The position numbers and the translations under genes were made by a program. Below, in pieces: positions 30,999 through 58,600 of a stretch of 64,000 nt of DNA. The stretch is taken from assembly GCA_948099385.1 (NCBI GenBank), contig CANUEZ040000208.1, positions 2,356,001-2,420,000 on the forward strand, given 5' to 3'. This DNA comes from Fasciola hepatica. Lineage: Eukaryota > Platyhelminthes > Trematoda > Plagiorchiida > Fasciolidae. Position 1 is the first letter of the stretch. Every line of letters starts with the position of its first letter. The notes beneath the pieces were generated by a model, which was not told the origin of the DNA, did not search any database, and worked only from the letters and a program-made list of their open reading frames with translations.

Positions 30999-31010
30999 TT
31001 CAAATTTGAA
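30999..31010. repeat. 12-bp perfect palindrome TTCAAATTTGAA
   Basis: Perfect inverted repeat in the conserved spacer of many monomers. A common subtype reads TTCAAATTTAAA instead, which breaks it; this form is frequent after about 48 kb and in the E and E' monomers. No function can be assigned; it could be a protein-binding site or chance. Confidence 0.7.
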
Positions 31011-31098
31011 GCGAGTTTGGGAAGGGTGCTATATCATGTAGTGTAGGTGTTGAACAAAGCGTTGAGAGCCATCCCGGATAGCCTTGTGTTGTTAAGTT

Positions 31099-31107
31099 GT
31101 TCGATTC
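31099..31107 (+). promoter_or_regulatory. B-box-like motif (candidate Pol III element)
   Basis: GTTCGATTC matches the RNA polymerase III B-box (TPsiC arm) core and recurs in most monomers, about 92 bp upstream of the predicted cleavage site here. An A-box is weak: TAGTGTAGATGT, about 60 bp upstream of the B-box in most copies, is only a partial match to TRGCNNAGYNGG. Variants TTATTCGATTC and GTCGTTCGATTC occur in some subtypes; both keep most of the core. Function is inferred only. Confidence 0.4.
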
Positions 31108-31150
31108 ACAATGGTTCACCGGTTGTTGGAGTGCCCGTGGGGGCTCGGTC

Positions 31151-31211
31151 GATGTGCACTGCTGATGAGTCGAGTCCCTTAGAGGATGAAACAGCTGTAC
31201 AGTGCTTCCAT
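31151..31211 (+). ncRNA. Type I hammerhead ribozyme, common monomer version
   Basis: Self-cleaving RNA motif. Helix I: GCACTG (31156-31161) pairs 6/6 with CAGTGC (31200-31205). Core box 1: CTGATGA (31162-31168). Helix II: GTC (31169-31171) pairs with GAT (31185-31187), the closing pair being G-U. Core box 2: GAA (31188-31190) followed by A15.1 (31191). Helix III: ACAG/CTGT (31191-31198), self-complementary with almost no loop. U16.1 is 31198 and A17 is 31199, so cleavage is predicted after 31199. An internal loop (TTC versus T) then leads to a distal helix I segment CAT/ATG. All invariant hammerhead core residues are present. Every monomer has this element at the same offset, though many carry lesions. 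The weak points are the short helix II and the G-U closing pair; activity is inferred. Confidence 0.85.
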
Positions 31212-31264
31212 GGATTTCAATGCTCAGTTGAGCGTTCAAGCTGCATGATCAATCATATTATACA

Positions 31265-31289
31265 AATCTAATCTAATCTAATCTAATCT
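31265..31289 (+). repeat. AATCT pentamer microsatellite inside the monomer
   Basis: Five AATCT units in this copy. Across the array the tract holds roughly three to seven units, often with one TCTGA, GAACT or TATAA variant unit. It is the main source of monomer length change and lies about 65 bp downstream of the predicted ribozyme cleavage site. On the minus strand it reads TTAGA, which is not a telomere repeat I know. Confidence 0.9.
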
Positions 31290-31305
31290 CGTACTACTAA
31301 TCAAT

Positions 31306-31313
31306 TGCATGCA
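31306..31313. repeat. 8-bp palindrome TGCATGCA
   Basis: Present at the same offset in nearly all monomers, directly after CAAT and next to the pentamer tract. It is strongly conserved across subtypes, with few exceptions (for example TACATGCA near 13636 and 14929, and GCATACAT near 35612). Confidence 0.7.
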
Positions 31314-36215: not shown

Positions 36216-37939
36216 TTGAACAAAGCGTTGAGAGCCATCCCGGATAGCCTTGTGTTGTTAAGTTGTTCGATTCACAATGGTTCAGCGGTTGTTGGAGTGC
36301 CCGTGGTTGCTCGGTCGATGTGCACTGCTGATGAGTCGAGTCCCTTAGAGGATAAAACAGCTGTACAGTGCTTTCATCCATTTCAATGCTCAGTTGAGCG
36401 TTCAAGCTGCATGATCAATCATATTATACAAATCTAATCTAATCTGATCTAATCTCGTACTACTAATCAATTGCATGCATAGTAAGGAAGCTGTGTAGGT
36501 TGTTCATTTGTGAATGCGTTGGTTGTACTTAGGCCCTTACAGAGAAGTCATCCATCATAGGAGTGGATCGGTGTGCGCGAAGCTGGTTCTTACCATTCAA
36601 ATTTGAAGCGAGTTTGGGAAGGGTGCTATATCATGTAGTGTAGACGTTGAACAAAGCGTTGAGAGCCATCCCGGATAGCCTTGTTTTGTTAAGTTGTTCG
36701 ATTCACAATGGTTCACCGGTTGTTGGAGTGCCCGTGGGGGCTCGGTCGATGTGCACTGCTGATGAGTCGAGTCCCTTAGAGGATGAAACAGCTGTACAGT
36801 GCTTCCATGGATTTCAATGCTCAGTTGAGCGTTCAAGCTGCATGACCAATCATATTATACAAATCTAATCTAATCTGATCTAATCTCGTACTACTAATCA
36901 ATTGCATGCATAGTAAGGAAGCTGTGTAGGTTGTTCATTTGGGAATGCGTTGGTTGTACTTAGGCCCCTACAGAGAAGTCATCCATCATAGGAGTCGATC
37001 GGTGTGCGCGAAGCTGGTTGTTACCATTCAAATTTAAAGCGAGTTTGGGAAGGGTGCTCTATCATGTAGTGTAGACGTTGAACAAAGCGTTGAGAGCCAT
37101 CCCGGATAGCCTTGTGTTGTTAAGTTGTTCGATTCACAATGGTTCAGCGGTTGTTGGAGTGCCCGTGGTTGCTCGGTCGATGTGCACTGCTGATGAGTCG
37201 AGTCCCTTAGAGGATAAAACAGCTGTACAGTGCTTTCATCCATTTCAATGCTCAGTTGAGCGTTCAAGCTGCATGATCAATCATATTATACAAATCTAAT
37301 CTAATCTGATCTAATCTCGTACTACTAATCAATTGCATGCATAGTAAGGAAGCTGTGTAGGTTGTTCATTTGTGAATGCGTTGGTTGTACTTAGGCCCTT
37401 ACAGAGAAGTCATCCATCATAGGAGTGGATCGGTGTGCGCGAAGCTGGTTCTTACCATTCAAATTTGAAGCGAGTTTGGGAAGGGTGCTATATCATGTAG
37501 TGTAGACGTTGAACAAAGCGTTGAGAGCCATCCCGGATAGCCTTGTTTTGTTAAGTTGTTCGATTCACAATGGTTCAGCGGTTGTTGGAGTGCCCGTGGT
37601 TGCTCGGTCGATGTGCACTGCTGATGAGTCGAGTCCCTTAGAGGATGAAACATCTGTACAGTGCTTCCATGGATTTCAATGCTCAGTTGAGCGTTCAAGC
37701 TGCATGATCAATCATATTATACAAGTCTAATCTAATCTAATCTAATCTCGTACTACTAATCAATTGCATGCATAGTAAGGAAGCTGTGTAGGTTGTTCAT
37801 TTGTGAATGCGTTGGTTGTACTTAGGCCCCTACAGAGAAGTCATCCATCATAGGAGTCGATCGGTGTGCGCGAAGCTGGTTCTTACCATTCAAATTTGAA
37901 GCGAGTTTGGGAACGGTGCTATATCATGTAGTGTAGATG
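36216..37939 (+). repeat. Dimeric higher-order repeat, 862 bp x 2
   Basis: The monomers at 36216 and 36647 are repeated at 37078 and 37509. The first member shares GTGCTCTATCATG, GAGGATAAAACAG and CTTTCATCC; the spacer before the second member shares AGGCCCTTACAG. The fourth monomer switches to GTTCAGCGG and CGTGGTTGCTC and has AAACATCTG, so the second copy of the dimer is partly recombinant. Confidence 0.88.
36317..36378 (+). ncRNA. Decayed hammerhead, G12 lost
   Basis: CTGATGA, helix I and the distal GATG/CATC pairing are intact, but the second core box reads AAAA in place of GAAA (G12 changed to A). The same lesion recurs in the sister monomer at 37078. Loop sequence TTT replaces TTC. Confidence 0.75.
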
Positions 37940-40900
37940 TTGAACAAAGCGTTGAGAGCCATACCGGATAGCCTTGTGTTGTTAAGTTATTCGATTCACA
38001 ATGGTTCACCGGTTGTTGGAGTGCCCGTGGGGGCTCGGTCGATGTGCACTGCTGATGAGTCGAGTTACGTAGAAGATGATACAGTTGTACAGTGCTTCCA
38101 TGGATCTCAATGCTCAGTTGAGCGTTCAAGCTGCATGATCAATCATATTAAACAAATCTAATCTAATCTGATCTAATCTCGTACTACTAATCAATTGCAT
38201 GCATAGTAAGGAAGCTGTGTAGGTTGTTCATTTGGGAATGCGTTGGTTGTACTTAGGCCCCTACAGAGAAGTCATCCATCATAGGAGTCGATCGGTGTGC
38301 GCGAAGCTGGTTCTTACCATTCAAATTTAAATCGAGTTTGGGAAGGGTACTATATCATGTAGTGTAGATGTTGAACAAAGCGTTGATAGCCATCCCGGAT
38401 AGCCTTGTGTTGTTGAGTTGTTCGATTCACAATGGTTCACCGGTTGTTGGAGTGCCCGTGGTTGCTCGGTCGATGTGCACTGCTGATGAGTCGAGTCCCT
38501 TAGAGGATGAAACAGCTGTACAGTGCTTCCATGGATTTCAATGCTCAGTTGAGCGTTCAAGCTGCATGATCAATCATATTATACAAATCTAATCTGATCT
38601 AATCTAATCTCGTACTACTAATCAATTGCATGCATAGTAAGGAAGCTGTGTAGGTTGTTCATTTGGGAATGCGTTGGTTGTACTTAGGCCCCTACAGAGA
38701 AGTCATCCATCATAGGAGTCGATCGGTGTGCGCGAAGCTGGTTCTTACCATTCAAATTTGAAGCGAGTTTGGGAAGGGTGCTATATCATGTAGTGTAGAC
38801 GTTGAACAAAGCGTTGAGAGCCATCCCGGATAGCCTTGTGTTGTTAAGTTGTTCGATTCACAATGGTTCACCGGTTGTTGGAGTGCCCGTGGGGGCTCGG
38901 TCGATGTGCACTGCTGATGAGTCGAGTCCCTTAGAGGATGAAACAGCTGTACAGTGCTTCCATGGATTTCAATGCTCAGTTGAGCGTTCAAGCTGCATGA
39001 TCAATCATATTATACAAATATAATCTAATCTGAACTTATCTCGTACTACTAATCAATTGCATGCATAGTAAGGAAGCTGTGTAGGTTGTTCATTTGTGAA
39101 TGCGTTGGTTGTACTTAGGCCCCTACAGAGAAGTCATCCATCATAGGAGTGGATCGGTGTGCGCGAAGCTGGTTCTTACCATTCAAATTTGAAGCGAGTT
39201 TGGGAAGGGTGCTATATCATGTAGTGTAGGTGTTGAACAAAGCGTTGAGAGCCATCCCGGATAGCCTTGTGTTGTTAAGTTGTTCGATTCACAATGGTTC
39301 ACCGGTTGTTGGAGTGCCCGTGGGGGCTCGGTCGATGTGCACTGCTGATGAGTCGAGTCCCTTAGAGGATGAAACAGCTGTAGAGTGCTTCCATTGATTT
39401 CAATGCTCATATGAGCGTTCAAGCTGCATGATCAATCATATTATACAAATCTAATCTAATCTGATCTAATCTCGTACTACTAATCAATTGCATGCATAGT
39501 AAGGAAGCTGTGTAGGTTGTTCATTTGGGAATGCGTTGGTTGTACTTAGGCCCCTACAGAGAAGTCATTCATCATACGAGTCGATCGGTGTGCGCGAAGC
39601 TGGTTCTTACCATTCAAATTTGAAACAAGTTTGGGAACGGTGCTATATCATGTAGTGTAGGTGTTCAACAAAGCGTTGATAGCCATCCCGGATAGCCTTG
39701 TGTTGTTAAGTTGTTCGATTCACAATGGTTCACCGGTTGTTGGAGTGCCCGTGGGGGCTCGGTCGATGTGCACTGCTGATGAGTCGAGTCCCTTAGAGGA
39801 TGAAACAGCTGTACAGTGCTTCCATGGATTTCAATGCTCAGTTGAGCGTTCAAGCTGCATGATCAATCATATTATACAAATCTAATCTAATCTAATCTAA
39901 TCTCGTACTACTAATCAATTGCATGCATAGTAAGGAAGCTGTGTAGGTTGTTCATTTGGGAATGCGTTGGTCGTACTTAGGCCCCTACAGAGAAGTCATC
40001 CATCATAGGAGTGGATCGGTGTGCGCGAAGCTGGTTCTTACCGTTCAAATTTAAAGCGAGTTTGGGAAGGGAACTATATCATGTAGAGTAGATGTTGAAC
40101 AAAGCGTTGATAGCCATCCCGGATAGCCTTGTGTTGTTAAGTTGTTCGATTCACAATGGTTCACCGAATGTTGGAGTGCCCGTGGTTGCTCGGTCGATGT
40201 GCACTGCTGATGAGTCGAGTCCCTTAGAGGATGAAACAGCTGTACAGTGCTTCCATGGATTTCAATGCTCAGTTGAGCGTTCAAGCTGCATGATCAATCA
40301 TATTATACAAATCTGATCTGATCTAATCTCGTACTACTAATCAATTGCATGCATAGTAAGGAAGCTGTGTAGGTTGTTCATTTGTGAATGCGTTGGTTGA
40401 ACTGAGGCCCCTACAGAGAAGTCATCCATCATGGGAGTCGATCGGTGTGCGCGAAGCTGGTTCTTACCATTCAAATTTGAAGCGAGTTTGGGAACGGTGC
40501 TATATCATGTAGTGTAGATGTTGAACAAAGCGTTGAGAGCCATCCCGGATAGCCTTGTGTTGTTAAGTTGTTCGATTGACAATGGTTCACCGGTTGTTGG
40601 AGTGCCCGTGGGGGCTCGGTCGATGTGCACTGCTGATGAGTCGAGTCCCTTAGAGGATGAAACAGCTGTACAGTGCTTCCATGGATTTCAATGCTCAGTT
40701 GAGCGTTCAAGCTGCATGACCAATCATATTATACAAATCTAATCTAATCTGAACTTATCTCGTACTACTAGTCAATTGCATGCATAGTAAGGAAGCTGTG
40801 TAGGTTGTTCATTTGTGAATGCGTTGGTTGAACCTGGGCCCCTACAGAGAAGTCATCCATCATAGGAGTGGATCGGTGTGCGCGAAGCTGGTTCTTACCA

Positions 40901-43900
40901 TTCAAATTTGAAGCGAGTTTGGGAACGGTGCTATATCATGTAGTGTAGGTGTTGAACAAAGCGTTGATAGCCATCCCGGACAGCCTTGTGTTGTTAAGTT
41001 GTTCGATTCACAATGGTTCACCGGTTGTTGGAGTGCCCGTGTGGGCTCGGTCGATGTGCACTGCTGATGAGTCGAGTCCCTTAGAGGATGAAACAGCTGT
41101 AGAGTGCTTCCATGGATTTCAATGCTCATATGAGCGTTCAAGCTGCATGATCAATCATATTGTACAAATCTAATCTAATCTGATCTAATCTCGTACTACT
41201 AATCAATTGCATGCATAGTAAGGAAGCTGTGTAGGTTGTTCATTTGGGAATGCGTTGGTTGTACTTAGGCCCCTACAGAGAAGTCATCCATCATACGAGT
41301 CGATCGGTGTGCGCGGAGCTGGTTCTTACCATTCAAATTTGAAGCGAGTTTGGGAACGGTGCTATATCATGTAGTGTAGATGTTGAACAAAGCGTTGATA
41401 GCCATCCCGGATAGCCTTGTGTTGTTAAGTTGTTCGATTCACAATGGTTCACCGGTTGTTGGAGTGCCCGTGGTTGCTCGGTCGATGTGCACTGCTGATG
41501 AGTCGAGTCCCTTAGAGGATGAAACAGCTGTACAGTGCTCCCATGGATTTCAATGCTCAGTTGAGCGTTCAAGCTGCATGATCAATCATATTATACAAAT
41601 CTAATCTAATCTGATCTAATCTCGTACTACTAATCAATTGCATGCATAGTAAGGAAGCTGTGTAGGTTGTTCATTTGTGAATGCGTTGGTTGAACTCAGG
41701 CCCCTACAGAGAAGTCATCCATCATGGGAGTGGATCGGTGTGCGCGAAGCTGGTTCTTACCATTCAAATTTGAAGCGAGTTTGGGAAGGGAACTATATCA
41801 TGTAGTGTAGATGTTGAACAAAGCGTTGAGAGCCATCCCGGATAGCCTTGTTTTGTTAAGTTGTTCGATTCACAATGGTTCAGCGGTTGTTGGAGTGCCC
41901 GTGTGGGCTCGGTCGATGTGCACTGCTGATGAGTCGAGTCCCTTAGAGGATGAAACAGCTGTACAGTGCTTCCATGGATTTCAATGCTCAGTTGAGCGTT
42001 CAAGCTGCATGATCAATCATATTATACAAATCTAATCTGATCTGATCTAATCTCGTACTACTAATCAATTGCATGCATCGTAAGGAAGCGGTGTAGGTTT
42101 TTCATTTGTGAATGCGTTGGTTGTACTTAGGCCCCTACAGAGAAGTCATCCATCATAGGAGTCGATCGGTGTGCGCGAAGCTGGTTCTTACCATTCAAAT
42201 TTGAAGCGAGTTTGGGAACGGTGCTATATCATGTAGTGTAGATGTTGAACAAAGCGTTGAGAGCCATCCCGGATAGCCTTGTGTTGTTAAGTTGTTCGAT
42301 TCACAATGGTTCAGCGGTTGTTGGAGTGCCCGTGGTTGCTCGGTCGATGTGCACTGCTGATGAGTCGAGTCCCTTAGAGGATGAAACAGCTGTACAGTGC
42401 TTCCATGGATTTCAATGCTCAGTTGAGCGTTCAAGCTGCATGATCAATCATATTATACTAATCAAATCTAATCTAATCTAATCTCGTACTACTAATCAAT
42501 TGCATGCATAGTAAGGAAGCTGTGTAGGTTGTTCATTTGTGAATGCGTTGGTTGAACTTAGGCCCCTACAGAGAAGTCATCCATCATAGGAGTCGATCGG
42601 TGTGCGCGAAGCTGGTTCTTACCATTCAAATTTAAAGCGAGTTTGGGAAGGGTGCTATATCATGTAGTGTAGACGTTGAACAAAGCGTTGAGAGCCATCC
42701 CGGATAGCCTTGTGTTGTTAAGTTGTTCGATTCACAATGGTTCACCGGTTGTTGGAGTGCCCGTGGTTGCTCGGTCGATGTGCACTGCTGATGAGTCGAG
42801 TCCCTTAGAGGATGAAACAGCTGTACAGTGCTTCCATGGATGTCAATGCTCAGTTGAGCGTTCAAGCTGCATGATCAATCATATTATACAAATCTAATCT
42901 GATCTAATCTAATCTCGTACTACTAATCAATTGCATGCATAGTAAGGAAGCTGTGTAGGTTATTCATTTGGGAATGCGTTGGTTGTACTTAGGCCCCTAC
43001 AGAGAAGTCATCCATCATAGGAGTCGATCGGTGTGCGCGAAGCTGGTTCTTACCATTCAAATTTGAAGCGAGTTTGGGAAGGGTGCTATATCATGTAGTG
43101 TAGGTGTTGAACAAAGCGTTGATAGCCATCCCGGATAGTCTTGTGTTGTTAAGTTGTTCGATTCACAATGGTTCACCGGTTGTTGGAGTGCCCGTGGGGG
43201 CTCGGTCGATGTGCACTGCTGATGAGTCGAGTCCCTTAGAGGATGAAACAGCTGTACAGTGCTTCCATGGATTTCAATGCTCAGTTGAGCGTTCAAGCTG
43301 CATGACCAATCATATTATACAAATCTAATCTAATCTGATCTTATCTCGTACTACTAATCAATTGCATGCATAGTAAGGAAGCTGTGTAGGTTGTTCATTT
43401 GGGAATGCGTTGGTTGTATTTAGGCCCCTACAGAGAAGTCATCCATCATAGGAGTGGATCGGTGTGCGCGAAGCTGGTTCTTACCATTCAAATTGGAAGC
43501 GAGTTTGGGAAGGGTGCTATATCATGTAGTGTAGATGTTGAACAAAGCGTTGAGAGCCATCCCGGATAGCCTTGTGTTGTTAAGTTGTTCGATTCACAAT
43601 GGTTCACCTGTTGTTGGAGTGCCCGTGGGGGCTCGGTCGATGTGCACTGCTGATGAGTCGAGTCCCTTAGAGGATGAAACAGCTGTACAGTGCTTCCATG
43701 GATTTCAATGCTCAGTTGAGCGTTCAAGCTGCATGATCAATCATATTATACAAATCTAATCTAATCTAATCTAATCTCGTACTACTAATCAATTGCATGC
43801 ATAGTAAGGAAGCTGTGTAGGTTGTTCATTTGGGAATGCGTTGGTTGTACTTAGGCCCCTACAGAGAAGTCATCCATCATAGGAGTCGATCGGTGTGCGC

Positions 43901-45258
43901 GAAGCTGGTTCTTACCATTCAAATTTGAAGCGAGTTTGGGAACGGTGCTATATCATGTAGTGTAGACGTTGAACAAAGCGTTGAGAGCCATCCCGGATAG
44001 CCTTGTGTTGTTAAGTTGTTCGATTCACAATGGTTCAGCGGTTGTTGGAGTGCCCGTGGTTGCTCGGTCGATGTGCACTGCTGATGAGTCGAGTCCCTTA
44101 GAGGATGAAACAGCTGTACAGTGCTTCCATGGATGTCAATGCTCAGTTGAGCGTTCAAGCTGCATGATCAATCATATTATACAAATCTAATCTGATCTAA
44201 TCTAATCTCGTACTACTAATCAATTGCATGCATAGTAAGGAAGCTGTGTAGGTTGTTCATTTGTGAATGCGTTGGTTGAACTTAGGCCCCTACAGAGAAG
44301 TCATCCATCATAGGAGTCGATCGGTGTGCGCGAAGCTGGTTCTTACCATTCAAATTTAAAGCGAGTTTGGGAACGGTGCTATATCATGTAGTGTAGACGT
44401 TGAACAAAGCGTTGAGAGCCATCCCGGATAGCCTTGTTTTGTTAAGTTGTTCGATTCACAATGGTTCAGCGGTTGTTGGAGTGCCCGTGGTTGCTCGGTC
44501 GATGTGCACTGCTGATGAGTCGAGTCCCTTAGAGGATGAAACAGCTGTACAGTGCTTCCATGGATGTCAATGCTCAGTTGAGCGTTCAAGCTGCATGATC
44601 AATCATATTATACAAATCTAATCTAATCTGATCTAATCTCGTACTACTAATCAATTGCATGCATAGTAAGGAAGCTGTGTAGGTTATTCATTTGGGAATG
44701 CGTTGGTTGTACTTAGGCCCCTACAGAGAAGTCATCCATCATAGGAGTCGATCGGTGTGCGCGAAGCTGGTTCTTACCATTCAAATTTAAAGCGAGTTTG
44801 GGAAGGGTGCTATATCATGTAGTGTAGATGTTGAACAAAGCGTTGAGAGCCATCCCGGATAGCCTTGTGTTGTTAAGTTGTTCGATTCACAATGGTTCAC
44901 CGGTTGTTGGAGTGCCCGTGGGGGCTCGGTCGATGTGCACTGCTGATGAGTCGAGTCCCTTAGAGGATGAAACAGCTGTACAGTGCTTCCATGGATTTCA
45001 ATGCTCAGTTGAGCGTTCAAGCTGCATGACCAATCATATTATACAAATCTAATCTAATCTGATCTTATCTCGTACTACTAATCAATTGCATGCATAGTAA
45101 GGAAGCTGTGTAGGTTGTTCATTTGGGAATGCGTTGGTTGTACTTAGGCCCCTATAGAGAAGTCATCCATCATAGGAGTCGATCGGTGTGCGCGAAGCTG
45201 GTTCTTACCATTCAAATTTAAAGCGAGTTTGGGAACGGTGCTATATCATGTAGTGTAG
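37937..45258 (+). repeat. Mixed monomers, 37.9-45.3 kb
   Basis: About 17 monomers. Marker monomers: 37937 (GAGTTACGTAGAAGATGATAC), 38368 (TTTAAATCGAG, TTGAGTTG), 39230 and 40949 (CTCATATGAGCG), 39661 (GTGTTCAAC), 40092 (AGAGTAG, CCGAATG), and 43969 with 44400 (CAGCGG together with GGATGTCAATG). Several of these recur elsewhere in the window at distances of many monomers. Confidence 0.75.
38041..38101 (+). ncRNA. Decayed hammerhead, A14 lost
   Basis: Core box 1 CTGATGA is intact, but box 2 reads GATA (A14 changed to U) and helix II is weakened (AGAAGAT, C-A mismatch at the third pair). Helix III ACAGTTGT can still pair using G-U. The copy at 48381-48441 carries the same set of changes. Confidence 0.72.
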
Positions 45259-46982
45259 ATGTTGAACAAAGCGTTGAGAGCCATCCCGGATAGCCTTGTG
45301 TTGTTAAGTTGTTCGATTCACAATGGTTCAGCGGTTGTTGGAGTGCCCGTGGTTGCTCGGTCGATGTGCACTGCTGATGAGTCGAGTCCCTTAGAGGATG
45401 AAACAGCTGTACAGTGCTTCCATCCATTTCAATGCTCAGTTGAGCGTTCAAGCTGCATGATCAATCATATAATACAAATCTAATCTAATCTAATCTAATC
45501 TCGTACTACTAATCAATTGCATGCATAGTAAGGAAGCTGTGTAGGTTATTCATTTGGGAATGCGTTGGTTGTACTTAGGCCCCTACAGAGAAGTCATCCA
45601 TCATAGGAGTCGATCGGTGTGCGCGAAGCTGGTTCTTACCATTCAAATTTGAAGCGAGTTTGGGAACGGTGCTATATCATGTAGTGTAGGTGTTGAACAA
45701 AGCGTTGATAGCCATCCCGGATAGCCTTGTGTTGTTAAGTTGTTCGATTCACAATGGTTCACCGGTTGTTGGAGTGCCCGTGGGGGCTCGGTCGATGTGC
45801 ACTGCTGATGAGTCGAGTCCCTTAGAGGATGAAACAGCTGTACAGTGCTTCCATGGATTTCAATGCTCAGTTGAGCGTTCAAGCTGCATGACCAATCATA
45901 TTATACAAATCTAATCTAATCTGATCTTATCTCGTACTACTAATCAATTGCATGCATAGTAAGGAAGCTGTGTAGGTTGTTCATTTGGGAATGCGTTGGT
46001 TGTACTTAGGCCCCTACAGAGAAGTCATCCATCATAGGAGTGGATCGGTGTGCGCGAAGCTGGTTCTTACCATTCAAATTTGAAGCGAGTTTGGGAACGG
46101 TGCTATATCATGTAGTGTAGATGTTGAACAAAGCGTTGATAGCCATCCCGGATAGCCTTGTGTTGTTAAGTTGTTCGATTCACAATGGTTCAGCGGTTGT
46201 TGGAGTGCCCGTGGTTGCTCGGTCGATGTGCACTGCTGATGAGTCGAGTCCCTTAGAGGATGAAACAGCTGTACAGTGCTTCCATCCATTTCAATGCTCA
46301 GTTGAGCGTTCAAGCTGCATGATCAATCATATAATACAAATCTAATCTAATCTAATCTAATCTCGTACTACTAATCAATTGCATGCATAGTAAGGAAGCT
46401 GTGTAGGTTATTCATTTGGGAATGCGTTGGTTGTACTTAGGCCCCTACAGAGAAGTCATCCATCATAGGAGTCGATCGGTGTGCGCGAAGCTGGTTCTTA
46501 CCATTCAAATTTGAAGCGAGTTTGGGAACGGTGCTATATCATGTAGTGTAGATGTTGAACAAAGCGTTGATAGCCATCCCGGATAGCCTTGTGTTGTTAA
46601 GTTGTTCGATTCACAATGGTTCAGCGGTTGTTGGAGTGCCCGTGGTTGCTCGGTCGATGTGCACTGCTGATGAGTCGAGTCCCTTAGAGGACGAAACAGC
46701 TGTACAGTGCTTCCATCCATTTCAATGCTCAGTTGAGCGTTCAAGCTGCATGATCAATCATATAATACAAATCTAATCTAATCTAATCTAATCTCGTACT
46801 ACTAATCAATTGCATGCATAGTAAGGAAGCTGTGTAGGTTATTCATTTGGGAATGCGTTGGTTGTACTTAGGCCCCTACAGAGAAGTCATCCATCATAGG
46901 AGTCGATCGGTGTGCGCGAAGCTGGTTCTTACCATTCAAATTTAAAGCGAGTTTGGGAACGGTGCTATATCATGTAGTGTAG
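45259..46982 (+). repeat. Monomers sharing CATATAATAC
   Basis: The monomers at 45259, 46121 and 46552 share GTTCAGCGG, CGTGGTTGCTC, TTCCATCCATTTC and CATATAATACAAAT; 45690 lies between them and belongs to another type (CATGACCAATC). The first pair suggests an 862-bp dimer, and 46121 followed by 46552 a single-monomer duplication. Hammerheads in the three marked monomers have the extended GATG/CATC helix I. Confidence 0.78.
46656..46717 (+). ncRNA. Hammerhead ribozyme, best-preserved version
   Basis: Compared with the common version, this copy has C at 46692, so helix II closes with a Watson-Crick G-C pair (GTC 46674-46676 with GAC 46690-46692). It also has CATC (46714-46717), which pairs 4/4 with GATG (46656-46659) in distal helix I. 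Core CTGATGA is 46667-46673, GAA is 46693-46695, A15.1 is 46696 and U16.1 is 46703; cleavage is predicted between 46704 and 46705. With the copies near 49.7 kb and 51.85 kb, this is one of the strongest candidates for activity. Confidence 0.85.
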
Positions 46983-49900
46983 ATGTTGAACAAAGCGTTG
47001 AGAGCCATCCCGGATAGCCTTGTGTTGTTAAGTTGTTCGATTCACAATGGTTCACCTGTTGTTGGAGTGCCCGTGGGGGCTCGGTCGATGTGCACTGCTG
47101 ATGAGTCGAGTCCCTTAGAGGACGAAACAGCTGTACAGTGCTTCCATGGATTTCAATGCTCAGTTGAGCGTTCAAGCTGCATGACCAATCATATTATACA
47201 AATCTAATCTAATCTGATCTAATCTCGTACTACTAATCAATTGCATGCATAGTAAGGAAGCTGTGTAGGTTGTTCATTTGGGAATGCGTTGGTTGTACTT
47301 AGGCCCCTACAGAGAAGTCATCCATCATAGGAGTCGATCGGTGTGCGCGAAGCTGGTTCTTACCATTCAAATTTGAAGCGAGTTTGGGAACGGTGCTATA
47401 TCATGTAGTGTAGGTGTTGAACAAAGCGTTGAGAGCCATCCCGGATAGCCTTGTGTTGTTAAGTTGTTCGATTCACAATGGTTCACCGGTTGTTGGAGTG
47501 CCCGTGGGGGCTCGGTCGATGTGCACTGCTGATGAGTCGAGTCCCTTAGAGGATGAAACAGCTGTACAGTGCTTCCATGGATTTCAATGCTCAGTTGAGC
47601 GTTCAAGCTGCATGATCAATCATATTATACAAATCTAATCTAATCTGATCTAATCTCGTACTACTAATCAATTGCATGCATAGTAAGGAAGCTGTGTAGG
47701 TTGTTCATTTGTGAATGCGTTGGTTGAACTCAGGCCCCCAACAGAGAAGTCATCCATCATAGGAGTCGATCGGTGTGCGCGAAGCTGGTTCTTACCATTC
47801 AAATTTGAAGCGAGTTTGGGAAGGGTGCTATATCATGTAGTGTAGATGTTGAACAAAGCGTTGAGAGCCATCCCGGATAGCCTTGTTTTGTTAAGTTGTT
47901 CGATTCACAATGGTTCACCGGTTGTTGGAGTGCCCGTGGTTGCTCGGTCGATGTGCACTGCTGATGAGTCGAGTCCCTTAGAGGATGAAACAGCTGTACA
48001 GTGCTTCCATCCATTTCAATGCTCAGTTGAGCGTTCAAGCTGCATGATCAATCATATTATACAAATCTAATCTGATCTAATCTAATCTCGTACTACTAAT
48101 CAATTGCATGCATAGTAAGGAAGCTGTGTAGGTTGTTCATTTGTGAATGCGTTGGTTGTACTTAGGCCCCTACAGAGAAGTCATCCATCATAGGAGTCGA
48201 TCGGTGTGCGCGAAGCTGGTTCTTACCATTCAAATTTGAAGCGAGTTTGGGAAGGGTGCTATATCATGTAGTGTAGATGTTGAACAAAGCGTTGAGAGCC
48301 ATACCGGATAGCCTTGTGTTGTTAAGTTATTCGATTCACAATGGTTCACCGGTTGTTGGAGTGCCCGTGGGGGCTCGGTCGATGTGCACTGCTGATGAGT
48401 CGAGTTACGTAGAAGATGATACAGTTGTACAGTGCTTCCATGGATTTCAATGCTCAGTTGAGCGTTCAAGCTGCATGATCAATCATATTATACAAATCTA
48501 ATCTAATCTGATCTAATCTCGTACTACTAATCAATTGCATGCATAGTAAGGAAGCTGTGTAGGTTTTTCATTTGGGAATGCGTTGGTTGTACTTAGGCCC
48601 CTACAGAGAAGTCATCCATCATAGGAGTCGATCGGTGTGCGCGAAGCTGGTTCTTACCATTCAAATTTGAAGCGAGTTTGGGAAGGGTACTATATCATGT
48701 AGTGTAGATGTTGAACAAAGCGTTGATAGCCATCCCGGATAGCCTTGTGTTGTTAAGTTGTTCGATTCACAATGGTTCACCGGTTGTTGGAGTGCCCGTG
48801 GGGGCTCGGTCGATGTGCACTGCTGATGAGTCGAGTCCCGTAGAGGATGAAACAGCTGTACAGTGCTTCCATGGATTTCAATGCTCAGTTGAGTGTTCAA
48901 ACTGCATGATCAATCATATTATACAAATCTAATCTAATCTAATCTAATCTCGTACTACTAATCAATTGCATGCATAGTAAGGAAGCTGTGTAGGTTGTTC
49001 ATTTGGGAATGCGTTGGTTGTACTTAGGCCCCTACAGAGAAGTCATCCATCATAGGAGTGGATCGGTGTGCGCGAAGCTGGTTCTTACCATTCAAATTTA
49101 AAGCGAGTTTGGGAAGGGTGCTATATCATGTAGTGTAGATGTTGAACAAAGCGTTGAGAGCCATCCCGGATAGCCTTGTGTTGTTAAGTTGTTCGATTCA
49201 CAATGGTTCACCGGTTGTTCGAGTGCCCGTGTGGGCTCGGTCGATGTGCACTGCTGATGAGTCGAGTCCCGTGGAGGATGAAACAGCTGTACAGTGCTTC
49301 CATGGATTTCAATGCTCAGTTGAGCGTTCAAGCTGCATGATCAATCATATTATACAAATCTAATCTAATCTGATATAATCTCGTACTACTAATCATTTGC
49401 ATGCATAGTAAGGAAGCTGTGTAGGTTGTTCATTTGTGAATGCGTTGGTTGTACTTAGGCCCCTACAGAGAAGTCATCCATCATAGGAGTCGATCGGTGT
49501 GCGCGAAGCTGGTTCTTACCATTCAAATTTGAAGCGAGTTTGGGAGGGGTGCTATATCATGTAGTGTAGATGTTGAACAAAGCGTTGAGAGCCATCCCGG
49601 ATAGCCTTGTTTTGTTAAGTTGTTCGATTCACAATGGTTCAGCGGTTGTTGGAGTGCCCGTGGTTGCTCGGTCGATGTGCACTGCTGATGAGTCGAGTCC
49701 CTTAGAGGACGAAACAGCTGTACAGTGCTTCCATCCATTTCAATGCTCAGTTGAGCGTTCAAGCTGCATGATCAATCATATTATACAAATCTAATCTAAT
49801 CTGATATAATCTCGTACTACTAATCAATTGCATGCATAGTAAGGAAGCTGTGTGGGTTTTTCATTTGGGAATGCGTTGGTTGTACTTAGGCCCCTACAGA

Positions 49901-50431
49901 GAAGTCATCCATCATAGGAGTCGATCGGTGTGCGCGAAGCTGGTTCTTACCATTCAAATTTAAATCGAGTTTGGGAAGGGTACTATATCATGTAGTGTAG
50001 ATGTTGAACAAAGCGTTGATAGCCATCCCGGATAGCCTTGTGTTGTTGAGTTGTTCGATTCACAATGGTTCACCGGTTGTTGGAGTGCCCGTGGTTGCTC
50101 GGTCGATGTGCACTGCTGATGAGTCGAGTCCCTTAGAGGATGAAACAGCTGTACAGTGCTTCCATGGATTTCAATGCTCAGTTGAGCGTTCAAGCTGCAT
50201 GATCAATCATATTATACAAATCTAATCTAATCTAATCTAATCTCGTACTACTAATCAATTGCATGCATAGTAAGGAAGCTGTGTAGGTTGTTCATTTGGG
50301 AATGCGTTGGTTGTACTTAGGCCCCTACAGAGAAGTCATCCATCATAGGAGTCGATCGGTGTGCGCGAAGCTGGTTCTTACCATTCAAATTTAAATCGAG
50401 TTTGGGAAGGGTACTATATCATGTAGTGTAG
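46983..50431 (+). repeat. Mixed monomers, 47.0-50.4 kb
   Basis: Eight monomers. 47414-47845 has a 1-bp insertion in the conserved spacer (GGCCCCCAACAG, near 47735). 48277 repeats the TTACGTAGAAGATGATAC variant of 37937, and 50001 repeats the TTTAAATCGAG/TTGAGTTG monomer of 38368. 49139 has GTTCGAGTGCCCGTGTGG, a D-like middle section on an otherwise ordinary monomer. Confidence 0.75.
49674..49735 (+). ncRNA. Hammerhead ribozyme, well-preserved version
   Basis: Core CTGATGA 49685-49691; helix II GTC/GAC with a G-C closing pair; GAAA at 49711-49714; helix III ACAG/CTGT; predicted cleavage between 49722 and 49723. Helix I is GCACTG (49679-49684) with CAGTGC (49723-49728), extended by GATG (49674-49677) with CATC (49732-49735) across a TTC/T internal loop. 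Confidence 0.85.
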
Positions 50432-51828
50432 ATGTTGAACAAAGCGTTGATAGACAGCCCGGATAAGCTTGTGTTGTTAAGTTGTTCGATTCACAATGGT
50501 TCACCGGTTGTTCGAGTGCCCGTGTGGGCTCGGTCGATGTGCACTGCTGATGAGTCGAGTCCCTTAGAGGATGAAACAGCTGTACAGTGCTTCCATGGAT
50601 TTCAATGCTCAGTTGAGCGTTCAAGCTGCATGATCAATCATATTATACAAATCTAATCTAATCTGATCTAATCTCGTACTACTAATCAATTGCATGCATA
50701 GTAAGGAAGCTGTGTAGGTTGTTCATTTGTGAATGCGTTGGTTGTACTTAGGCCCCTACAGAGAAGTCATCCATCATAGGAGTGGATCGGTGTGCGCGAA
50801 GCTGGTTCTTACCATTCAAATTTGAAGCGAGTTTGGGAACGGTGCTATATCATGTAGTGTAGATGTTGAACAAAGCGTTGAGAGCCATCCCGGATAGCCT
50901 TGTGTTGTTAAGTTGTTCGATTCACAATGGTTCACCGGTTGTTGGAGTGCCCGTGGGGGCTCGGTCGATGTGCACTGCTGATGAGTCGAGTCCCTTAGAG
51001 GATGAAACAGCTGTACAGTGCTTCCATGGATTTCAATGCTCAGTTGAGCGTTCAAGCTGCATGATCAATCATATTATACAAATCTAATCTAATCTGATCT
51101 TATCTCGTACTACTAATCAATTGCATGCATAGTAAGGAAGCTGTGTAGGTTGTTCATTTGTGAATGCGTTGGTTGTACTTAGGCCCCTACAGAGAAGTCA
51201 TCCATCATAGGAGTCGATCGGTGTGCGCGAAGCTGGTTCTTACCATTCAAATTTAAAGTGAGTTCGGGAAGGGAACTATATCATGTAGTGTAGATGTTGA
51301 ACAAAGCGTTGATAGACAGCCCGGATAAGCTTGTGTTGTTAAGTCGTTCGATTCACAATGGTTCACCGGTTGTTCGAGTGCCCGTGTGGGCTCGGTCGAT
51401 GTGCACTGCTGATGAGTCGAGTCCCTTAGAGGATGAAACAGCTGCACAGTGCTTCCATGGATTTCAATGCTCAGTTGAGCGTTCAAGCTGCATGATCAAT
51501 CATATTATACAAATCTAATCTAATCTGATCTAATCTCGTACTACTAATCAATTGCATGCATAGTAAGGAAGCTGTGTAGGTTGTTCATTTGGGAATGCGT
51601 TGGTTGAACTCAGGCCCCTACAGAGAAGTCATCCATCATAGGAGTGGATCGGTGTGCGCGAAGCTGGTTCTTACCATTCAAATTTAAAGCGAGTTTGGGA
51701 AGGGTGCTATATCATGTGGTGTAGATGTTGAACAAAGCGTTGAGAGCCATCCCGGATAGCCTTGTGTTGTTAAGTTGATCGATTCACAATGGTTCAGCGG
51801 TTGTTGGAGTGCCCGTGGTTGCTCGGTC

Positions 51829-51890
51829 GATGTGCACTGCTGATGAGTCGAGTCCCTTAGAGGACGAAACAGCTGTACAGTGCTTCCATC
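51829..51890 (+). ncRNA. Hammerhead ribozyme, well-preserved version
   Basis: Core CTGATGA 51840-51846; helix II GTC (51847-51849) with GAC (51863-51865); GAA 51866-51868; helix III ACAG/CTGT (51869-51876); predicted cleavage between 51877 and 51878; helix I GCACTG/CAGTGC plus distal GATG/CATC. The downstream flank reads AATACTC where most copies have AATGCTC, outside the motif. Confidence 0.85.
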
Positions 51891-52586
51891 CATTTCAATA
51901 CTCAGTTGAGCGTTCAAGCTGCATGATCAATCATACTATACAAATCTAATCTAATCTGATCCAATCTCGTACTACTAATCAATTGCATGCATAGTAAGGA
52001 AGCTGTGTAGGTTGTTCATTTGGGAATGCGTTGGTTGTACTTAGGCCCCTACAGAGAAGTCATCCATCATAGGAGTCGATCGGTGTGCGCGAAGCTGGTT
52101 CTTACCATTCAAATTTAAAGCGAGTTTGGGAAGGGTGCTATATCATGTAGTGTAGATGTTGAACAAAGCGTTGATAGACAGCCCGGATAAGCTTGTGTTG
52201 TTAAGTCGTTCGATTCACAATGGTTCACCGGTTGTTCGAGTGCCCGTGTGGGCTCGGTCGATGTGCACTGCTGATGAGTCGAGTCCCTTAGAGGATGAAA
52301 CAGCTGTACAGTGCTTCCATCCATTTCAATGCTCAGTTGAGCGTTCAAGCTGCATGATCAATCATATTATACAAATCTAATCTAATCTGATCTTATCTCG
52401 TACTACTAATCAATTGCATGCATAGTAAGGAAGCTGTGTAGGTTGTTCATTTGTGAATGCGTTGGTTGTACTTAGGCCCCTACAGAGAAGTCATCCATCA
52501 TAGGAGTCGATCGGTGTGCGCGAAGCTGGTTCTTACCATTCAAATTTGAAGCGAGTTTGGGAACGGTGCTATATCATGTAGTGTAG

Positions 52587-53016
52587 ATGTTGAACAAAGC
52601 GTTGAGAGCCATCCCGGATAGCCTTGTGTTGTTAAGTTGTTCGATTCACAATGGTTCAGCGGTTGTTGGAGTGCCGTGAGGGCTCGATCGATGTGCACTG
52701 CTGATGAGTCGAGTCCCTTAGAGGATGAAACAGCTGTACAGTGCTTCCATCCATTTCAATACTCAGTTGAGCGTTCAAGCTGCATGATCAATCATATTAT
52801 ACAAATCTAATCTAATCTAATCTAATCTCGTACTACTAATCAATTGCATGCATAGTAAGGAAGCTGTGTAGGTTTTTCATTTGTGAATGCGTTGGTTGTA
52901 CTTAGGCCCCTACAGAGAAGTCATCCATCATAGGAGTGGATCGGTGTGCGCGAAGCTGGTTCCTACCATTCAAATTTAAAGCGAGTTTGGGGAGGGAACT
53001 ATATCATGTAGTGTAG
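52587..53016 (+). repeat. Monomer with 1-bp deletion shared with 16.4 kb
   Basis: Contains GAGTGCCGTGAGGGCTCG followed by ATCG, with one C missing relative to GAGTGCCCGTG, giving a 430-bp unit. The monomer near 16395 has the same deletion with the same GTGAGGGCTCGATCG context, about 84 monomers away. Confidence 0.78.
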
Positions 53017-54526
53017 ATGTTGAACAAAGCGTTGAGAGCCATCCCGGATAGCCTTGTGTTGTTAAGTTGTTCGATTCACAATGGTTCACCGGTTGTTGGA
53101 GTGCCCGTGGGGGCTCGGTCGATGTGCACTGCTGATGAGTCGAGTCCCTTAGAGGATGAAACAGCTGTACAGTGCTTCCATGGATTTCAATGCTCAGTTG
53201 AGCGTTCAAGCTGCATGATCAATCATATTATACAAATCTAATCTAATCTGATATAATCTCGTACTACTAATCAATTGCATGCATAGTAAGGAAGCTGTGT
53301 AGGTTGTTCATTTGTGAATGCGTTGGTTGTACTTAGGCCCCTACAGAGAAGTCATCCATCATAGGAGTCGTTCGGTGTGCGCGAAGCTGGTTCTTACCAT
53401 TCAAATTTAAAGTGAGTTCGGGAAGGGAACTATATCATGTAGTGTAGATGTTGAACAAAGCGTTGATAGACAGCCCGGATAAGCTTGTGTTGTTAAGTCG
53501 TTCGATTCACAATGGTTCACCGGTTGTTCGAGTGCCCGTGTGGGCTCGGTCGATGTGCACTGCTGATGAGTCGAGTCCCTTAGAGGATGAAACAGCTGCA
53601 CAGTGCTTCCATGGATTTCAATGCTCAGTTGAGCGTTCAAGCTGCATGATCAATCATATTATACAAATCTAATCTAATCTGATCTAATCTCGTACTACTA
53701 ATCAATTGCATGCATAGTAAGGAAGCTGTGTAGGTTGTTCATTTGGGAATGCGTTGGTTGAACTCAGGCCCCTACAGAGAAGTCATCCATCATAGGAGTG
53801 GATCGGTGTGCGCGAAGCTGGTTCTTACCATTCAAATTTAAAGCGAGTTTGGGAAGAGTGCTATATCATGTGGTGTAGATGTTGAACAAAGCGTTGAGAG
53901 CCATCCCGGATAGCCTTGTTTTGTTAAGTTGTTCGATTCACAATGGTTCAGCGGTTGTTGGAGTGCCCGTGGTTGCTCGGTCGATGTGCACTGCTGATGA
54001 GTCGAGTCCCTTAGAGGATGAAACAGCTGTACAGTGCTTCCATCCATTTCAATACTCAGTTGAGCGTTCAAGCTGCATGATCAATCATATTATACAAATC
54101 TAATCTAATCTGATCCAATCTCGTACTACTAATCAATTGCATGCATAGTAAGGAAGCTGTGTAGGTTGTTCATTTGGGAATGCGTTGGTTGTACTTAGGC
54201 CCCTACAGAGAAGTCATCCATCATAGGAGTCGATCGGTGTGCGCGAAGCTGGTTCTTACCATTCAAATTTAAACCGAGTTTGGGAAGGGAACTATATCAT
54301 GTAGTTTAGATGTTGAACAAAGCGTTGAGAGCCATCCCGGATAGCCTTGTGTTGTTAAGTCGTTCGATTCATAATGGTTCACCGGTTGTTCGAGTGCCCG
54401 TGTGGGCTCGGTCGATGTGCACTGCTGATGAGTCGAGTCCCTCAGAGGATGAAACAGCTGTACAGTGCTTCCATGGATTTCAATGCTCAGTTGAGCGTTC
54501 AAGCTGCATGATCAATAATATTATAC

Positions 54527-54563
54527 AAATCTAATCTAATCTAATCTAATATAATCTAATCTC
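54527..54563 (+). repeat. Expanded AATCT tract
   Basis: About seven pentamer units including one AATAT variant, the longest tract I noticed. It makes this monomer about 441 bp. Confidence 0.85.
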
Positions 54564-55612
54564 GTACTACTAATCAATTGCATGCATAGTAAGGAAGCTG
54601 TGTAGGTTGTTCATTTGTGAATGCGTTGGTTGTACTTAGGCCCCTACAGAGAAGTCATCCATCATAGGAGTCGATCGGTGTGCGCGAAGCTGGTTCCTAC
54701 CATTCAAATTTAAAGCGAGTTTGGGAAGGGTGCTATATCATGTAGTGTAGATGTTGAACAAAGCGTTGAGAGCCATACCGGATAGCCTTGTGTTGTTAAG
54801 TTGTTCGATTCACAATGGTTCACCGGTTGTTGGAGTGCCCGTGGTTGCTCGGTCGATGTGCACTGCTGATGAGTCGAGTCCCTTAGAGGATGAAACAGCT
54901 GTACAGTGCTTCCATGGATTTCAATGCTCAGTTGAGCGTTCAAGCTGCATGATCAATCATATTATACAAATCTAATCTAATCTGATATAATCTCGTACTA
55001 CTAATCAATTGCATGCATAGTAAGGAAGCTGTGTAGGTTGTTCATTTGTGAATGCATTGGATGTACTTAGGCCCCTACAGAGAAGTCATCCATCATAGGA
55101 GTCGATCGGTGTGCGCGAAGCTGGTTCCTACCATTCAAATTTAAAGCGAGTTTGGGAAGGGTGCTATATCATGTAGTGTAGATGTTGAACAAAGCGTTGA
55201 GAGCCATCCCGGATAGCCTTGTGTTGTTAAGTTATTCGATTCACAATGGTTCACCGGTTGTTGGAGTGCCCGTGTGCGCTCGGTCGATGTGCACTGCTGA
55301 TGAGTCGAGTCCCTTAGAGGATGAAACAGCTGTACAGCGCTTCCATGGATTTCAATGCTCAGTTGAGCGTTCAAGCTGCATGATCAATCATATTATACAA
55401 ATCTAATCTAATCTAATCTAATCTCGTACTACTAATCAATTGCATGCATAGTAAGGAAGCTGTGTAGGTTTTTCATTTGGGAATGCGTTGGTTGTACTTA
55501 GGCCCCTACAGAGAAGTCATTCATCATAGGAGTCGATCGGTGTGCGCGAAGCTGGTTCCTACCATTCAAATTTAAAGCGAGTTTGGGAAGGGAACTATAT
55601 CATGTAGTGTAG

Positions 55613-58600
55613 ATGTTGAACAAAGCGTTGATAGACAGCCCGGATAAGCTTGTGTTGTTAAGTCGTTCGATTCACAATGGTTCACCGGTTGTTCGAGTGC
55701 CCGTGTGGGCTCGGTCGATGTGCACTGCTGATGAGTCGAGTCCCTTAGAGGATGAAACAGCTGTACAGTGCTTCCATGGATTTCAATGCTCAGTTGAGCG
55801 TTCAAGCTGCATGATCAATCATATTATACAAATCTAATCTAATCTGATCTAATCTCGTACTACTAATCAATTGCATGCATAGTAAGGAAGCTGTGTAGGT
55901 TTTTCATTTGGGAATGCGTTGGTTGTACTTAGGCCCCTACAGAGAAGTCATCCATCATAGGAGTCGATCGGTGTGCGCGAAGCTGGTTCTTACCATTCAA
56001 ATTTAAAGCGAGTTTGGGAAGGGTGCTATATCATGTAGTGTAGATGTTGAACAAAGCGTTGAGAGCCATCCCGGATAGCCTTGTTTTGTTAAGTTGTTCG
56101 ATTCACAATGGTTCACCGGTTGTTGGAGTGCCCGTGGGGGCTCGGTCGATGTGCACTGCTGATGAGTCGAGTCCCTTAGAGGATGAAACAGCTGTACAGT
56201 GCTTCCATGGATTTCAATGCTCAGTTGAGCGTTCAAGCTGCATGATCAATCATATTATACAAATCTAATCTAATCTAATCTAATCTCGTACTACTAATCA
56301 ATTGCATGCATAGTAAGGAAGCTGTGTAGGTTTTTCATTTGTGAATGCGTTGGTTGTACTTAGGCCCCTACAGAGAAGTCATCCATCATACGAGTCGATC
56401 GGTGTGCGCGAAGCTGGTTCTTACCATTCAAATTTAAAGCGAGTTTGGGAAGGGTGCTATATCATGTAGTGTAGATGTTGAACAAAGCGTTGAGAGCCAT
56501 CCCGGATAGCCTTGTGTTGTTAAGTTATTCGATTCACAATGGTTCACAGGTTGTTGGAGTGCCCGTGGTTGCTCGGTCGATGTGCACTGCTGATGAGTCG
56601 AGTCCCTTAGAGGATGAAACAGCTGTACAGTGCTTCCATGGATGTCAATGCTCAGTTGAGCGTTCAAGCTGCATGATCAATCATATTATACAAATCTAAT
56701 CTAATCTAATCTAATCTCGTACTACTAATCAATTGCATGCATAGTAAGGAAGCTGTGTAGGTTTTTCATTTGGGAATGCGTTGGTTGTACTTAGGCCCCT
56801 ACAGAGAAGTCATCCATCATAGGAGTCGATCGGTGTGCGCGAAGCTGGTTCCTACCATTCAAATTTAAAGCGAGTTTGGGAAGGGAACTATATCATGTAG
56901 TGTAGATGTTGAACAAAGCGTTGATAGACAGCCCGGATAAGCTTGTGTTGTTAAGTCGTTCGATTCACAATGGTTCACCGGTTGTTCGAGTGCCCGTGTG
57001 GGCTCGGTCGATGTGCACTGCTGATGAGTCGAGTCCCTTAGAGGATGAAACAGCTGTACAGTGCTTCCATGGATTTCAATGCTCAGTTGAGCGTTCAAGC
57101 TGCATGATCAATCATATTATACAAATCTAATCTAATCTGATCTAATCTCGTACTACTAATCAATTGCATGCATAGTAAGGAAGCTGTGTAGGTTGTTCAT
57201 TTGTGAATGCGTTGGTTGTACTTAGGCCCCTACAGAGAAGTCATCCATCATAGGAGTCGATCGGTGTGCGCGAAGCTGGTTCCTACCATTCAAATTTAAA
57301 GCGAGTTTGGGAAGGGTGCTATATCATGTAGTGTAGTTGTTGAACAAAGCGTTGAGAGCCATCCCGGATAGCCTTGTGTTGTTAAGTTGTTCGATTCACA
57401 ATGGTTCACCGGTTGTTGGAGTGCCCGTGGGGGCTCGGTCGATGTGCACTGCTGATGAGTCGAGTCCCTTAGAGGATGAAACAGCTGTACAGTGCTTCCA
57501 TGGATTTCAATGCTCAGTTGAGCGTTCAAGCTGCATGATCAATCATATTATACAAATCTAATCTAATCTAATCTAATCTCGTACTACTAATCAATTGCAT
57601 GCATAGTAAGGAAGCTGTGTAGGTTTTTCATTTGGGAATGCGTTGGTTGTACTTAGGCCCCTACAGAGAAGTCATCCATCATAGGAGTCGATCGGTGTGC
57701 GCGAAGCTGGTTCTTACCATTCAAATTTAAAGCGAGTTTGGGAACGGTGCTATATCATGTAGTGTAGATGTTGAACAAAGCGTTGATAGCCATCCGGGAT
57801 AGCCTTGTGTTGTTAAGTCGTTCGATTCACAATGGTTCACCGGTTGTTCGAGTGCCCGTGTGGGCTCGGTCGATGTGCACTGCTGATGAGTCGAGTCCCT
57901 TAGAGGATGAAACAGCTGTACAGTGCTTCCATGGATTTCAATGCTCAGTTGAGCGTTCAAGCTGCATGATCAATCATATTATACAAATCTAATCTAATCT
58001 GATATAATCTCGTACTACTAATCAATTGCATGCATAGTAAAGAAGCTGTGTAGGTTGTTCATTTGTGAATGCGTTGGTTGTACTTAGGCCCCTACAGAGA
58101 AGTCATCCATCATAGGAGTCGATCGGTGTGCGCGAAGCTGGTTCTTACCATTCAAATTTAAAGCGAGTTTGGGAAGGGTACTATATCATGTAGTGTAGAT
58201 GTTGAACAAAGCGTTGAGAGCCATCCCGGATAGCCTTGTGTTGTTAAGTTATTCGATTCACAATGGTTCACCGGTTGTTGGAGTGCCCGTGGGGGCTCGG
58301 TCGATGTGCACTGCTGATGAGTCGAGTCCCTTAGAGGATGAAACAGCTGTACAGTGCTTCCATGGATTTCAATGCTCAGTTGAGCGTTCAAGCTGCATGA
58401 TCAATCATATTATACAAATCTAATCTAATCTAATCTAATCTCGTACTACTAATCAATTGCATGCATAGTAAGGAAGCTGTGTAGGTTGTTCATTTGTGAA
58501 TGCGTTGGTTGTACTTAGGCCCCTACAGAGAAGTCATCCATCATAGGAGTCGATCGGTGTGCGCGAAGCTGGTTCCTACCATTCAAATTTAAAGCGAGTT

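Follow-up and report, generated by a model that had tools for sequence, protein, structure and literature searches.

A 431-bp satellite array of Fasciola hepatica with a hammerhead-derived motif in its monomers, most likely descended by decay from a tRNA-hammerhead retroposon

The 431-bp satellite array

The analysed stretch of DNA (the window, 64,000 nt; positions 2356001-2420000 of contig C208 in the 1.5-Gb Fasciola hepatica assembly) was found to be a single tandem array (1..64000, + strand) with a unit of 431 bp, 148.5 copies, and 96% matches, as an earlier note had described it (one 64-kb satellite of about 148 monomers). The array extends past both window ends, and the monomer set used below consists of the 147 full monomers, with the two partial edge blocks left out. 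The unit is short and non-coding, and has no reverse-transcriptase gene of its own. AATCT repeats at 46770..46794 (+) are an expanded form of the 3′ tail of dispersed elements in the same genome.

C208 was sampled at 17 places. Between 2.15 and 2.48 Mb, nine samples contained the 431-bp satellite in + orientation; a sister satellite of 423 bp, on the - strand, was present in six of six samples taken between 1.8 and 2.1 Mb and at 2.5 Mb (1.8, 1.9, 2.0, 2.05, 2.1, and 2.5 Mb), and samples at 1.0 and 1.5 Mb contained neither. The 423-bp array (L040, L041, L074-L077; L-numbers denote loci read elsewhere in the same genome) flanks the 431-bp array in the opposite orientation, and by the sampled places the two together cover at least 0.7 Mb. 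Among the best 40 of 1393 candidates, which were scored, the 431-bp unit was also present on C194, C196, C197, C203-C206, and C229. A literature search of titles and abstract starts retrieved no prior description of the 431-bp satellite, which is not proof that it is unpublished, and nothing relevant on fluke satellites among the matches listed.

The hammerhead-derived motif

In the monomer described here, the motif spans 50 nt (46661..46710, +) and matches model positions 1-45 of the Rfam type I hammerhead (RF00163, Hammerhead_1) with 29.3 bits, with E-values of 6e-5 in a 1-kb search and 0.0038 in a search of the whole window. It begins with the 5′ strand of helix I, GCACTG (46661..46666), followed by the core residues C3-A9, CTGATGA (46667..46673), and by five surplus bases, GTCGA (46674..46678), which amount to one GAGTC of the tandem GAGTCGAGTC and are absent from the Rfam model and from insert-free relatives. 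Stem-loop II, for which folding gives GTCC-CTTAGA-GGAC as the most stable form, occupies 46679..46692, and the core residues G12-A14, GAA, lie at 46693..46695. The palindrome ACAGCTGT (A15.1 to U16.1; 46696..46703) represents helix III, and A17, after which cleavage is expected, is followed by the 3′ strand of helix I, CAGTGC (46704..46710). All of these elements are on the + strand.

A search of the window at Rfam gathering scores returned no match of any family, and a permissive search returned 84 rows, all of them RF00163 on the + strand, with seven at 29.3 bits, five at 26.9, and most of the others at 24.5. The covariance-model check that the earlier note had set for itself thus yielded no copy at or above the curated RF00163 cut-off of 34 bits. 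The copies singled out there as best (at 46.7, 49.7, and 51.85 kb) are indeed among the seven at 29.3 bits, but they are unrepresentative, belonging to the minority with C at residue 11.1 (C in 23 of the 147 monomers, U in 124).

The same motif is present in 147/147 full monomers, so the type I hammerhead reported for every monomer can be retained as a hammerhead-derived motif; it is not an intact ribozyme, given its insert and sub-cut-off score. The core and helix I, described as standing at a fixed offset throughout, are less uniform. All 12 scored core residues (CUGANGA ... GAA, A15.1-U16.1, H17) are present in 116/147 monomers, the 6-bp helix I is fully paired in 130/147, and helix III is palindromic in 125/147; core, helix I, and palindrome are all intact in only 106/147, seven of which have C11.1. 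As exact strings, GCACTGCTGATGA, CAGTGC, and ACAGCTGT occur 128, 134, and 127 times in the window. Type I hammerhead ancestry of the motif is supported at the level of sequence, because of the Rfam match and because relatives within the same genome score better (see below).

Stem II and helix III

The five-base insert, a duplicated GAGTC, lies between the core and stem II in all 147 monomers, and the distance from helix I to helix I is 50 nt in every one of them, against 45 positions in the Rfam model. Two registers of stem II compete: either three base pairs adjoin the core and close a 13-nt loop, or four pairs form at a distance of five extra bases from the core. Constrained folding favoured the latter by about 6 kcal/mol, and assigned the catalytic fold a probability of 1e-5 in both 431 types, 2e-4 in the motif of a related 400-bp satellite, and 6e-5 in the common dispersed motif. 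This folding argument is weak, because the catalytic fold of insert-free copies receives a low probability too. The possibility that the duplication had lengthened stem II was rejected by eye, the complementary bases being missing on the 3′ side. In natural hammerheads, a stem II of only two pairs and a U10.1-U11.1 start are reported as tolerated, in the available part of the source (PMC3088659); by analogy, three pairs closing a 13-nt loop might be enough for a working stem II.

The earlier proposal of a 4-bp helix III, ACAG/CTGT, was not borne out, since these letters form a loopless 8-nt palindrome that cannot fold as a 4-bp hairpin inside one monomer. Within a single monomer, helix III can form no more than two pairs, closed by a four-base loop, compared with 8 bp between two copies. 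When dimers were folded, the eight bases paired between copies in three of four motifs (both 431 types and the 400-bp motif), and the common dispersed motif favoured a different dimer fold. A dimer fold with a free core and an adjoining stem II was obtained for the 400-bp motif only among the four motifs tried; the commonest 431 type has paired core bases in its dimer fold.

Conservation within the array and core-altered variants

Conservation of the core does not exceed that of the other monomer sequence. Divergence from the consensus was 0.027 for the 50 nt of the motif, against 0.022 for the remainder of the monomer, and when the 12-position core pattern was shifted circularly, an equal or lower value was obtained at 68% of places; by these two tests, no purifying selection on the motif was seen within the array. 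In a stretch of 21 monomers (16673..25718, +), 14 carry the core changes G5C and G8A; this doubly core-altered variant has therefore spread within the array. These 14 monomers interleave with normal ones, which hints at a higher-order repeat. A change of the G8A type (CUGANAA) was inactive in one schistosome copy, according to the available part of PMC8490949.

The consensus of the 423-bp sister satellite (16 units) reads CTCATGA for CTGATGA and CAAA for GAAA, a dead core. Relative to one 400-bp unit, the hammerhead diverges by 11.1% in the 431-bp satellite and by 17.8% in the 423-bp satellite, within the ranges of the other parts of the unit in both cases (4.2-14.2% and 12.5-27.3%, respectively).

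Relatives in the same genome

A genome search with RF00163 reported 38 places, 37 of them at or above the cut-off, with a best score of 40 bits; as 74 of 288504 first-look candidates were scored, 38 is not a copy number. All 38 places were read and grouped in 35 loci. The five-base insert of the window occurs in none of the 38 matches listed, for which picking by score disfavours insert-bearing copies. In loop II of one locus, L009 (- strand), there are two inserted nucleotides.

Two families were distinguished. Family 1 comprises 27 of the 35 loci and is homologous to the 431-bp satellite. Family 2 comprises eight loci (L002, L022, and L028-L033), shows no match to the satellite monomer, and contains about five independent members, since L031 and L032 repeat L002, and L030 repeats L029, with at least 99.8% identity over 1.5-1.6 kb. 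L028, alone in family 2, can be aligned with the 400-bp unit, over 68 bases surrounding the hammerhead. Family 2 looks like a second tRNA-like retroposon family, with helix I GCACCA/TGGTGC and the palindromes ACTCGAGT and ACTGCAGT.

An element search with L004, in which the best 40 of 5002 candidates were scored, revealed a third satellite, with a unit of 400-401 bp; its arrays were present at 28 of 30 fetched loci (L044-L072 except L057) on eight contigs. The hammerhead of this unit is insert-free, has U-U at 10.1-11.1, and scores 28.8 bits, also below the cut-off. Most of the 431-bp monomer can be aligned with the 400-bp satellite, and also with dispersed copies that score at or above the cut-off. 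That the satellite is unrelated and resembles a hammerhead by chance, as its score below the Rfam cut-off might have suggested, was rejected on this ground and is considered next to impossible, since homology to elements with above-threshold hammerheads extends across the monomer as a whole.

Covariation was measured on 18 of the 38 matches, which gave 17 distinct rows, all picked by a model that rewards pairing. The hammerhead structure was paired in 91.6% of cells; cells changed on both sides numbered 22, compared to 8.6 in shuffles and 0-4 in slid versions, and the covariation score was 0.351 compared to 0.206 in shuffles. Pairs with a double change (6 vs. 5.0) and further pair types (17 vs. 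16.2) did not exceed the shuffles. The double changes fall mostly between the two families, with helix I reading GCACTG/CAGTGC or GCACCA/TGGTGC, and helix III taking the forms ACAGCTGT, ACTCGAGT, and ACTGCAGT. The helix III palindrome is perfect in 27 of the 38 matches and not perfect in the other 11.

The tRNA-like head

L003 contains a tRNA match (31.2 bits, Rfam cut-off 29) whose end lies 10 nt upstream of the hammerhead. Matches below the cut-off were obtained in L005 (28.0 bits) and L006 (26.8 bits), and five further loci searched alongside gave no Rfam tRNA match. The 400-bp satellite likewise carries a tRNA-Val-like sequence 10 nt upstream of its hammerhead: L044 contains eight tRNA matches of 33.1-34.6 bits together with eight hammerheads of 28.8 bits, and ARAGORN called eight tRNA-Val genes in it, with no tRNA call in L003, L004, L036, and L041.

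In the window, neither the permissive Rfam search nor ARAGORN found a tRNA. Alignment with the 400-bp unit places a degenerate equivalent of the tRNA-Val-like head at 46577..46649 (+). Counted against the B-box consensus, the 431-bp units have three mismatches in 126 cases, two in 15, and four in five (146 measured of 147), whereas the eight L044 units have none. A tRNA head with Pol III boxes, as in an Sm-alpha-like SINE, is thus found in the 400-bp satellite and, by Rfam, in L003, but not in the window.

Inverted pairs and insertion structure

Head-to-head inverted copies are present in 18 of the 27 family-1 loci, the loci themselves having been found by hammerhead score; L003, L005, L009, L012, L014-L017, and L023-L026 are among them. 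Partner copies, which were picked without the hammerhead score, gave 11 rows with the full region, five of them with core changes, and two of these five are the related L014 pair. With TA runs excluded, and L007 and L035 left out, direct repeats of 10-14 nt flank six of the 27 extents examined, five of which are whole inverted pairs (L012, two in L014, L015, and L026) and one a single copy (L004). As a comparison, 14 of 700 mismatched flank pairs share at least 10 nt, a count made without individual inspection of the 14. Because a repeat of 11-14 nt encloses each of the five pairs in its entirety, every one of them has the look of one insertion event. Dispersed insertions with target-site duplications, as expected of an Sm-alpha-like SINE, were found among the dispersed relatives only. 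Copies inserted in long TA runs were observed in L013, L019, and L057 (and L011/L034).

The arms of these pairs end at similar places. Of 20 pairs compared (counting L057, and L014 twice, and with L011 and L034 related to each other), 18 have one arm ending at unit position 256-267 and the other at 210-242; L001 and L013 do not fit. The pattern looks like twin priming or two-template priming. The arms of L016, L019, and L026 are longer than one unit, and therefore the template would have been longer than one unit or circular. Arm starts showed no clustering, by eye, at the expected cleavage place.

L014 contains two inverted pairs (782-1433 and 7864-8518) 7.1 kb apart that have private mutations in common; their flanking repeats differ (12 and 13 nt), as though the whole pair had been mobilised together. 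Two open reading frames between them (2646-3653, -, and 4721-5254, +) look Penelope-like, and a Pfam search assigned no family to either. A transposon-like open reading frame in L014 had 28 matches, in three of which an organism is named (Dicrocoelium, Paragonimus, and a partial Streptococcus record).

Origin and activity of the motif

Judged from sequence comparison, the window most likely derives, by decay, from a tRNA-hammerhead SINE similar in kind to those of schistosomes (Sm-alpha). The ancestor would have been a non-autonomous retroposon, presumably transcribed by Pol III, in which a tRNA-Val-like Pol III head was followed after about 10 nt by a type I hammerhead and the 3′ end carried an AATCT/AATTGC tail. 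Its hammerhead probably worked in pairs, with neighbouring or separate copies sharing an 8-bp helix III. The element and a spacer of about 134 bp would then have become the unit of tandem satellites, and in the 431-bp lineage the promoter boxes would have decayed and the GAGTC duplication arisen beside stem II. The present array probably spreads and is homogenised by DNA-level processes, such as unequal exchange or conversion, with a ribozyme that would be inactive or very weak in most copies today. The direction of descent is read from shared parts and decay, not from a rooted tree. As a whole, with retroposon ancestry, DNA-level spread, and a ribozyme inactive or very weak in most copies, we consider this account likely.

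The decay reading is favoured because no window copy reaches the cut-off, all 147 monomers carry the insert, the core is unconserved, and core-dead variants have spread, and also because insert-free relatives reach the cut-off in 37 of 38 places and the 400-bp satellite keeps its tRNA head. The compensatory change between families adds to these reasons. Weighing against it are the 106/147 intact monomers, the natural occurrence of short stems II (PMC3088659, available part), and the sub-cut-off score of the 400-bp motif too. The five-base duplication and the unconstrained mutations suggest that the hammerhead in the array is mostly a fossil.

These points bear on whether the satellite hammerhead is still active, with a three-pair stem II and a 13-nt loop, neighbours pairing by the palindrome, and transcripts processed into units of about 431 nt. 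Core, helix I, and palindrome are kept together in 106/147 monomers, dimer folds of both 431 types give an 8-bp helix III, and short stem II and dimer action are both known (available parts of PMC3088659 and PMC7229834). Against this stand the insert in all copies, the absence of any copy at the cut-off, the unconserved core, the spread of core-dead variants, the lack of a recognisable promoter, and the paired core bases in the dimer fold of the commonest type, so that present activity appears improbable, if by some way the best of the alternatives. The earlier suggestion that array transcripts could self-cleave into units of about 431 nt that may circularise is not supported, in view of the sub-cut-off scores, the insert, the unconserved core, the spread of core-dead variants, and the missing tRNA head; for most copies, such cleavage is unlikely. 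That the array is the master copy of a tandem retrozyme still multiplying as a small circular RNA is more doubtful by far. Type I hammerheads in 150-450 bp tandem units are the form described for metazoan retrozymes (PMC7229834, available part), and some dispersed arms (L016, L019, and L026) exceed one unit, which calls for a long or circular template; however, the insert is in none of the 38 dispersed matches, which indicates that those copies did not come from the window array, even if picking by score disfavours insert-bearing ones, and a retrozyme fits the 400-bp satellite and the dispersed copies better than the window array.

The palindromic helix III could be the retroposon's dimerisation device, two RNAs joined by the 8-bp helix being offered together to the reverse transcriptase, an idea that we put forward as a long shot. 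If true, it would explain the head-to-head pairs in 18/27 family-1 loci, five of them flanked by a target-site duplication, and the usual arm ends near unit positions 262 and 235, and the satellites would be a by-product of dimer or multimer templates.

The motif is a real hammerhead derivative, correctly recognised in the earlier note and over-read there as to function; the presence of a hammerhead-like motif throughout the monomers should not be taken as evidence of activity. The dead-core sister array argues that a hammerhead is unneeded to maintain or enlarge an array, and is silent on how arrays begin. One genome would hold a series from mobile tRNA-hammerhead elements, through a 400-bp satellite with intact tRNA head and core, to two large satellites that differ in how promoter and ribozyme decayed, which makes it testable whether a hammerhead helps a repeat to become a satellite or is just carried along.

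Comparison with known systems

The sources cited in this section are drawn on in their available parts. Sm-alpha is a tRNA-derived, SINE-like element of high copy number with a type I hammerhead; its copies resemble tRNA-Gln-TTG, and the Sj pseudogenes are mostly tRNA-Pro-like (PMC2770079). The present elements resemble Sm-alpha and Sj-alpha as tRNA-derived, high-copy carriers of type I hammerheads, with the hammerhead alone compared by sequence. The loop CAAAUA of the Rfam type I consensus is common to L003, L007, and L008, and its helix III, ACGcgCGU, is palindromic too. In contrast to Sm-alpha, the head of the 400-bp unit is tRNA-Val-like and the helix I letters differ, and the window copy carries an insert and lacks a recognised tRNA head.

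The W-element satellites of Schistosoma mansoni also carry type I hammerheads, some core-changed and with autosomal copies too, and in vitro cleavage is reported for three of the schistosome copies assayed (PMC8490949). As hammerhead satellites they and the window satellite are alike, whereas the fixed insert is found only in the latter. Metazoan non-LTR retrozymes (coral, mussel, and axolotl, with newt satellite 2) have type I hammerheads in tandem repeats; amphibian retrozymes have a weak helix III that works as a dimer, and axolotl classes show a palindromic tetraloop or a U-U at the base of helix II (PMC7229834). With its hammerhead-derived motif, the 431-bp unit falls within the retrozyme form of a type I hammerhead in units of about 150-450 bp. 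It differs in the stem II insert of its motif, and a tRNA head is not mentioned for retrozymes in the available part of that source. The hammerheads of Penelope-like elements are minimal and of type I, with a very short helix III and a proposed dimer action (PMC7761336), but the 431-bp unit, short and non-coding, differs from those elements in having no reverse-transcriptase gene of its own.
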